Of a DNA stretch of 64,000 bases, positions 1 through 1,473 are shown piece by piece. The notes below the pieces were generated by a model. It was not told the origin of the DNA. It did not search any database and worked only from the letters and a program-made list of their open reading frames with translations. Where the stretch lies: assembly GCA_003605175.1 (NCBI GenBank), contig QWDA01000011.1:1-64000 (forward strand). The letters are read 5' to 3'. Position 1 is the first letter of the stretch. Every line of letters starts with the position of its first letter. Position numbers and translations under genes: made by a program. Source of the DNA: Paracoccaceae bacterium. GTDB lineage: Bacteria; Pseudomonadota; Alphaproteobacteria; Rhodobacterales; Rhodobacteraceae.

Positions 1-121
1 CGATCACCCGCACCCAGAAGCCCCGCTCCTCGGCATTGGCCGCCGCCACCGCCTTGATCACCGGCAGCGTCAGCTTCCGCTCGCGGAAATCGTCGCCGAC
101 ATTCTTGCCGGTGGCCGTCAT
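1..121 (-). CDS. polyprenyl diphosphate synthase, C-terminal fragment (partial)
   Basis: The minus strand from about 121 down to 1 reads TATGKNVGDDFRERKLTLP followed by VIKAV, which is the conserved GKN-x-GDDF-x-E-x-K-x-TLP block after the second Asp-rich motif of long-chain polyprenyl (octa/decaprenyl) diphosphate synthases, the enzymes making the ubiquinone side chain. Forty codons are visible before the window edge. Everything upstream (both DDxxD motifs) is missing: above about position 125 this frame stops resembling the family and the SMC gene begins in another frame. The fragment has no start signal of its own. The family call is firm; whether the truncation is biological or an assembly join is open. 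Confidence 0.75.
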   Translation of the reverse strand, partial: MTATGKNVGDDFRERKLTLPVIKAVAAANAEERGFWVRVI

Positions 122-1473
122 GTCGCCGTGGCCAGCGCCGCCTCTGCCGCGCCGAAGGCCGCCGCCGCGCCCGCCTCGGCCGCCTTCGCGGCCTCCGCCG
201 TCTGGTCGGCCCGCGCCGCCTCGGCCTCGCCGCGCTCGACCGTCTTCTTCTCGTCCTCGACCATGCGCTGCGCCGACTGGTGACGTGCCGCCAGCCGCGC
301 CGCGTCCTCGGTCAGCCGCGTGTATCCCGCCTCGCGCTCCTGCAGGACCTGCGCCGCCTCATGCGCCGCCGCCGCGGCCCCGGCCAGCCGCGCCTCGTGG
401 CCCTCGTTCTCGGCCTCGAGCCGCGCCGCCTCGTCCTCGAGCCGCGCGATGGTGTCGCCCGCGTCCCGGCTCAGCGCGTGCTCGCGCTCGATATCCCGGT
501 CGAGCTGGGCGATCCGCGCCGCCAGCGTCTCGATGGTCGCCGCGACACGCCGCTCCTCGTCGTCCAGCGCCTCGCGCTGCAACACGAGCCGCTGCAGCAC
601 CGCCTCGGCGATCGCCGATTCCTCGCGCAGGGGCGGCAGGGCCTCCTCGGCCTTGCCCCGCGCCGCCTCGGCCGCCCGCGCCAGCCGCTCGGCCTCCGCC
701 GCGCCGCGCACCCGCTCGGCAAGCTGCGCCCGCGCCGCCACCTGCGCATCCGCCGCCTCGCGCCAGCGCCGGTACAGGAGCACGCCTTCCGAGCGCCGGA
801 GCTGCTCGCTCAGCTCCCGGTACCGCGCCGCCTGCCGCGCCTGCCGCGCGAGCTGCTGGAGCTGTTGCGCCAGTTGCTCGATCACGTCGTCGACCCTGAG
901 AAGGTTCGCCTCCGCCCCCTTCAGCTTCAGCTCCGCCTCGTGGCGCCGCTGGTAGAGCCCGGAAATCCCCGCCGCCTCTTCCAGGATCCGCCGCCGCGCC
1001 TGCGGCTTGGCGTTGATCAGCTCCGAGATCTGCCCCTGCCGCACCAGCGCCGGCGAATGCGCGCCGGTCGAGGCATCGGCGAACAGCATCTGCACGTCGC
1101 GCGCGCGCACGTCCTTCTGGTTCACCTTGTAGGCCGAGCCCGCATCCCGGGTGATCCGCCGGGCGATCTCCAGGTGATCGCTGTCATTGAATCCCGCCGG
1201 CGCCAGCCGGTCGGAATTGTCCATCGACAGCACGACCTCGGCATAGTTCCGCGCCGGCCGCCGCGAGGTGCCGGCGAAGATCACGTCTTCCATGCCGCCG
1301 CCGCGCATCGCCGAGGGCCGGTTCTCGCCCATCACCCAGCGCAGCGCCTCGAGCAGGTTCGACTTGCCGCAGCCATTCGGGCCGACGACACCGGTCAGCC
1401 CCTCGGCGATCACCATCTCTGTGGGATCGACGAAGCTCTTGAAGCCGTTGAGCCGGAGTTTGGTAAACTGCAC
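118..1473 (-). CDS. smc: chromosome segregation protein SMC, N-terminal part, truncated
   Basis: This is the SMC ATPase that organises the chromosome. The N-terminal head is intact: FTKLRLNGFKSFVDPTE, then the Walker A motif GPNGCGKSN near residue 35, the Q-loop region and a QGQIS segment, followed by a long Ala/Glu/Arg-rich coiled coil. I place the start at the GTG at 1473, preceded by AGAAGGA with good spacing and matching the usual SMC N-terminus; an ATG at 1551 gives an extension without family similarity. The frame stops at 118-120 after about 451 residues, whereas SMC is normally about 1150. The hinge, second coil, signature motif and Walker B are absent, so this product could not be a working SMC. 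Confidence 0.88.
   Translation of the reverse strand: MQFTKLRLNGFKSFVDPTEMVIAEGLTGVVGPNGCGKSNLLEALRWVMGENRPSAMRGGGMEDVIFAGTSRRPARNYAEVVLSMDNSDRLAPAGFNDSDHLEIARRITRDAGSAYKVNQKDVRARDVQMLFADASTGAHSPALVRQGQISELINAKPQARRRILEEAAGISGLYQRRHEAELKLKGAEANLLRVDDVIEQLAQQLQQLARQARQAARYRELSEQLRRSEGVLLYRRWREAADAQVAARAQLAERVRGAAEAERLARAAEAARGKAEEALPPLREESAIAEAVLQRLVLQREALDDEERRVAATIETLAARIAQLDRDIEREHALSRDAGDTIARLEDEAARLEAENEGHEARLAGAAAAAHEAAQVLQEREAGYTRLTEDAARLAARHQSAQRMVEDEKKTVERGEAEAARADQTAEAAKAAEAGAAAAFGAAEAALATAT

Follow-up and report, generated by a model that had tools for sequence, protein, structure and literature searches.

The start of this window (the whole stretch of DNA analysed, 64,000 nucleotides, G000:C2:1-64000) raises the question of whether the organism carries an smc gene that has been cut short and set, out of frame, beside a piece of a prenyl synthase gene. 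On the minus strand, a GTG opens an SMC N-terminus of 451 codons, which ends at a TGA; an ATG overlapping this stop opens 40 codons of prenyl synthase in a different frame. Both pieces had been described in an earlier note made from the letters alone, and the translations bear them out. The same note offered two explanations, a genuine breakpoint, by which SMC would have lost its hinge and C-terminal head, or an erroneous joining of two regions at a GCC-rich stretch. Position 1 of the window is the end of a contig (C2) in a draft assembly (G000) made up of 35 contigs and 4,086,153 bases. We conclude, with a probability of about 0.97, that the smc/prenyl synthase fusion is an assembly artefact at this contig end and no real feature; most likely, smc is a normal, full-length gene of about 1,150 codons in this organism, and the prenyl synthase gene is present in one normal copy, which is found on another contig, C31.

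The prenyl synthase piece reproduces part of that gene exactly. The first bases of the window are 100% identical to a stretch of C31 over exactly 127 bases and diverge from it from base 128 onwards, and the source of these 127 bases lies in the interior of an uninterrupted prenyl synthase frame of 347 codons. Compared with prenyl synthase models, the window piece gave only weak matches (best NCBIfam E-value 7e-5; E-value 3.0e-4 for PF00348, under the family cut-off). The intact C31 gene passes PF00348 (257.3 versus 27 bits) and aligns with the octaprenyl diphosphate synthase model NF008140 over positions 4-321 of 323. It scores under the NF008140 cut-off (300.6 versus 412 bits), and because of this its chain-length label is not certain; we refer to it as an octaprenyl-type polyprenyl diphosphate synthase (NF008140, PF00348). 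A search of the whole genome with PF00348 returned three matches: the C31 gene, a different second gene on contig C30, and the tail at the start of the window, the last of these below the cut-off.

The part of SMC that is missing from the window was found at the start of another contig. A genome search with PF02463 gave 30 matches, most of them other ATPases; it placed an SMC N-terminal head in the window and an SMC C-terminal head in a frame of 733 codons right at the beginning of C29. The first 127 bases of C29 are themselves foreign, being an exact copy of C9:25162-25288, which belongs to a 690-codon frame with DnaG zinc-ribbon, DNAG_N and Toprim domains (dnaG-type); the 42 residues of the dnaG tail matched no family in Pfam. 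Beyond this tail C29 reads SMC. On the SMC model TIGR02168 (1181 positions), the window part covers positions 1-445 and the C29 part positions 483-1181. Scanned apart, the two parts scored 386.7 and 433.2 bits, both under the cut-off of 567.35, as halves of one protein would. The window translation contains VVGPNGCGKSN, which we take to be the Walker A motif of the N-terminal head, and the C29 translation contains LSLLSGGEQ and VLDEVDAPLDD, which we take to be motifs of the C-terminal head; the hinge presumably lies within the C29 profile span (483-1181). The proposal of a real breakpoint that deprives SMC of its hinge and C-terminal head is thus not supported, since the remainder of the protein begins C29 with an open frame.

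Comparison with related genomes allows an estimate of how much of smc is left unread between the two contigs. G001 is the sole genome of the same genus, besides G000, in the set compared. Its SMC frame has 1201 codons, to which the N-terminal part aligns at 50-501 and the C-terminal part at 508-1201. C2 and C29 align collinearly by blastn with a single stretch of G001, and the collinearity extends into the flanks beyond smc on each side. The SMC alignment to G001 reaches codon 451, so bases 121-126 of the window suit both SMC and the prenyl synthase; the C2 break therefore lies inside a few bases of microhomology (Table 1).

Table 1. Features at the start of the window (coordinates are those of the window).
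Feature	Positions	Strand	Description and basis
False contig-end tail	1..127	-	100% identical to G000:C31:272495-272621, a stretch inside the intact prenyl synthase gene; contig end
Junction	118..127	-	The ATG of the tail (121-119) overlaps the spurious smc stop (120-118), and bases 121-126 fit both genes; based on the translations, on the native prenyl synthase and G001 smc sequences beside it and on the G001 SMC alignment
True 5' part of smc	128..1473	-	GTG start (1473-1471); based on the TIGR02168 profile, the G001 alignment and collinearity; it resumes on G000:C29, past the first 127 bases of that contig, with an estimated 7-10 codons unread in between

The size of the gap was also estimated from relatives. 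The best 80 of 572 confirmed relative loci in one collection were used, and 76 of these 80 were usable (three of the dropped loci had frames of less than 1100 codons and one lacked the motif used to find the frame). Among these 76 loci, 45 imply 10 unread codons, 11 imply -4, nine imply 6 and four imply 8; the last seven imply other values. This spread is taken to reflect variation in coiled-coil length, together with the placement of alignment ends. From G001 and the commonest value among the relatives, we estimate that 7-10 codons are unread. The two contigs jointly cover positions 1-445 and 483-1181 of the 1181 of TIGR02168, and SMC would here be divided over two contigs by the assembly, with the estimated 7-10 codons between them. 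In 24 of 30 other genomes the smc match lies within an open frame that is 1,148 codons or longer. Among the remaining six, one has a frame of 544 codons (in an assembly that is 82% complete and in 330 contigs), one gave a weak match, and four gave no smc match at the threshold used.

The length of 127 bases recurs at other contig ends of the assembly. All 70 contig ends were examined; 16 of them, from eight contigs, read N, which left 54 readable ends. A terminal stretch is shared with the last 400 bases of another end in 37 of these 54, and the longest such stretch measures exactly 127 bases in every one of the 37. Three contigs are 255 bases long, that is, 2x127+1. Contigs of de Bruijn graphs overlap by k, and we regard these overlaps as the mark of a de Bruijn graph built at k = 127. 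This is the largest k usually used by SPAdes, and our guess is that SPAdes was the assembler. In assemblies of this type (SPAdes-type, k = 127) ends share exactly k bases, and a chimeric read creates a false edge between unrelated loci. The RegCloser abstract gives chimeric reads as a cause of erroneous k-mers in de Bruijn graphs (PMC10265787). The smc junction shows what such an artefact would show: it is located at a contig end, the foreign stretch is k bases long, the source is intact elsewhere, and the broken gene is resumed on another contig. We see nothing here that differs notably from chimeric edges of this kind; both sides of a single gap are tailed.

The position of the break is suggestive of a coverage failure. 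The 150 bases beside it have a G+C content of 0.80 on C2 and 0.81 on C29, which corresponds to the 98.5th and 99.5th percentiles, respectively, of 150-base windows in the 64-kb window (mean 0.686). We propose that short reads failed to cover a few tens of bases in this very G+C-rich part of the SMC coiled coil, and that, because of this failure, no true 127-mer path crossed the stretch. Rare chimeric reads, joined at short microhomologies, would then have been the sole paths leading out of each loose end, and the assembler would have kept each chimeric path as far as the first shared vertex, one 127-base k-mer, and halted there. Microhomology at a junction is expected of chimeric reads made during library preparation; the shared bases are less clear at the C29 junction than at the C2 junction. 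The evidence supports the second explanation of the earlier note, an erroneous joining at a GCC-rich stretch, in the precise form of one 127-base k-mer added at a contig end, with the rest of smc on C29. The note also suggested looking elsewhere in the assembly for a full-length smc and for the 5' part of the prenyl synthase; the prenyl synthase gene is intact on C31, and the 3' part of smc is on C29.

Seventeen contig ends, including the starts of C2 and C29, have no partner end. For 11 of the other 15, no second copy was found at E <= 1e-40 among the candidates scored (40 of 712, so that copies may have been missed); nine of these 11 have a G+C content of at least 0.76 in their last 127 bases, and the other two have 0.66 and 0.64. 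The last four lone ends gave matches. The end of C31 has an exact 127-base match in C11:626300-627177, about 0.4 kb from the end of C11, in a stretch that we read as the duplicated elongation factor Tu gene, usually a true repeat. The end of C8 carries 127 bases that are, with one mismatch, a near-copy of a stretch within C29:46800-47600. This tail reads gamma-glutamyltranspeptidase (PF01019), and no Pfam family matched the inner part of the same end; tail and inner part form one open frame, which can mimic a fusion protein. About 126 bases at the start of C30 match the interior of C29 (C29:449700-450500) with one gap and one mismatch, and this start is probably another false tail. At the end of C7, about 200 bases repeat C31 (within C31:261400-262300) with four mismatches before the sequences differ; low-quality reads may have produced this tail, or it may be a short duplication. 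Several lone ends, but not all, thus carry false or doubtful tails.

These data can be set against the explanations that assume a real junction. It is very improbable that a chromosomal rearrangement truncated smc and brought a duplicated piece of the prenyl synthase gene next to it. The junction does exist in the assembled sequence, with its clean stop and overlapping ATG, but the copied piece is exactly one k-mer and stops at the contig end, an intact prenyl synthase frame exists on C31 as well, and the other part of smc bears a different 127-base tail of its own (C29). Both parts of smc keep open frames and jointly match nearly the whole of SMC. A gene-truncating rearrangement was rejected on two of these points, the tail that stops after one k-mer and the presence of the missing smc part with an open frame, and a duplication of the end of the prenyl synthase gene was rejected with it.

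An equally slight chance is given to the idea that, in a minority of the cultured cells, breaks occurred at a real fragile site in the coiled-coil region of smc and were joined by microhomology to other genes, the assembler having followed these rare molecules. Different partners on the two sides of one smc site would agree with this, as would the few bases shared at the C2 junction; however, similar tails are carried by the unrelated contig ends of C8 and C30, and chimeras formed in the library or by PCR account for these tails without any special biology. That the junction was supplied by a contaminating or second strain is the least probable of all: none of the data examined here spoke for it, both tails match genes of this same genome at 100% identity, and the assembly is listed with a contamination of 0.06 and a completeness of 99.96.

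In conclusion, the artefact reading, a false tail added at a contig end, gives the smc/prenyl synthase junction no biological weight, as both genes are, in essence, intact in the assembly. A short foreign tail at a contig end, exactly k bases in length, can mimic a gene fusion or a gene truncation; at such a junction, the first checks are how far it lies from a contig end and whether the length of the copied stretch equals k.
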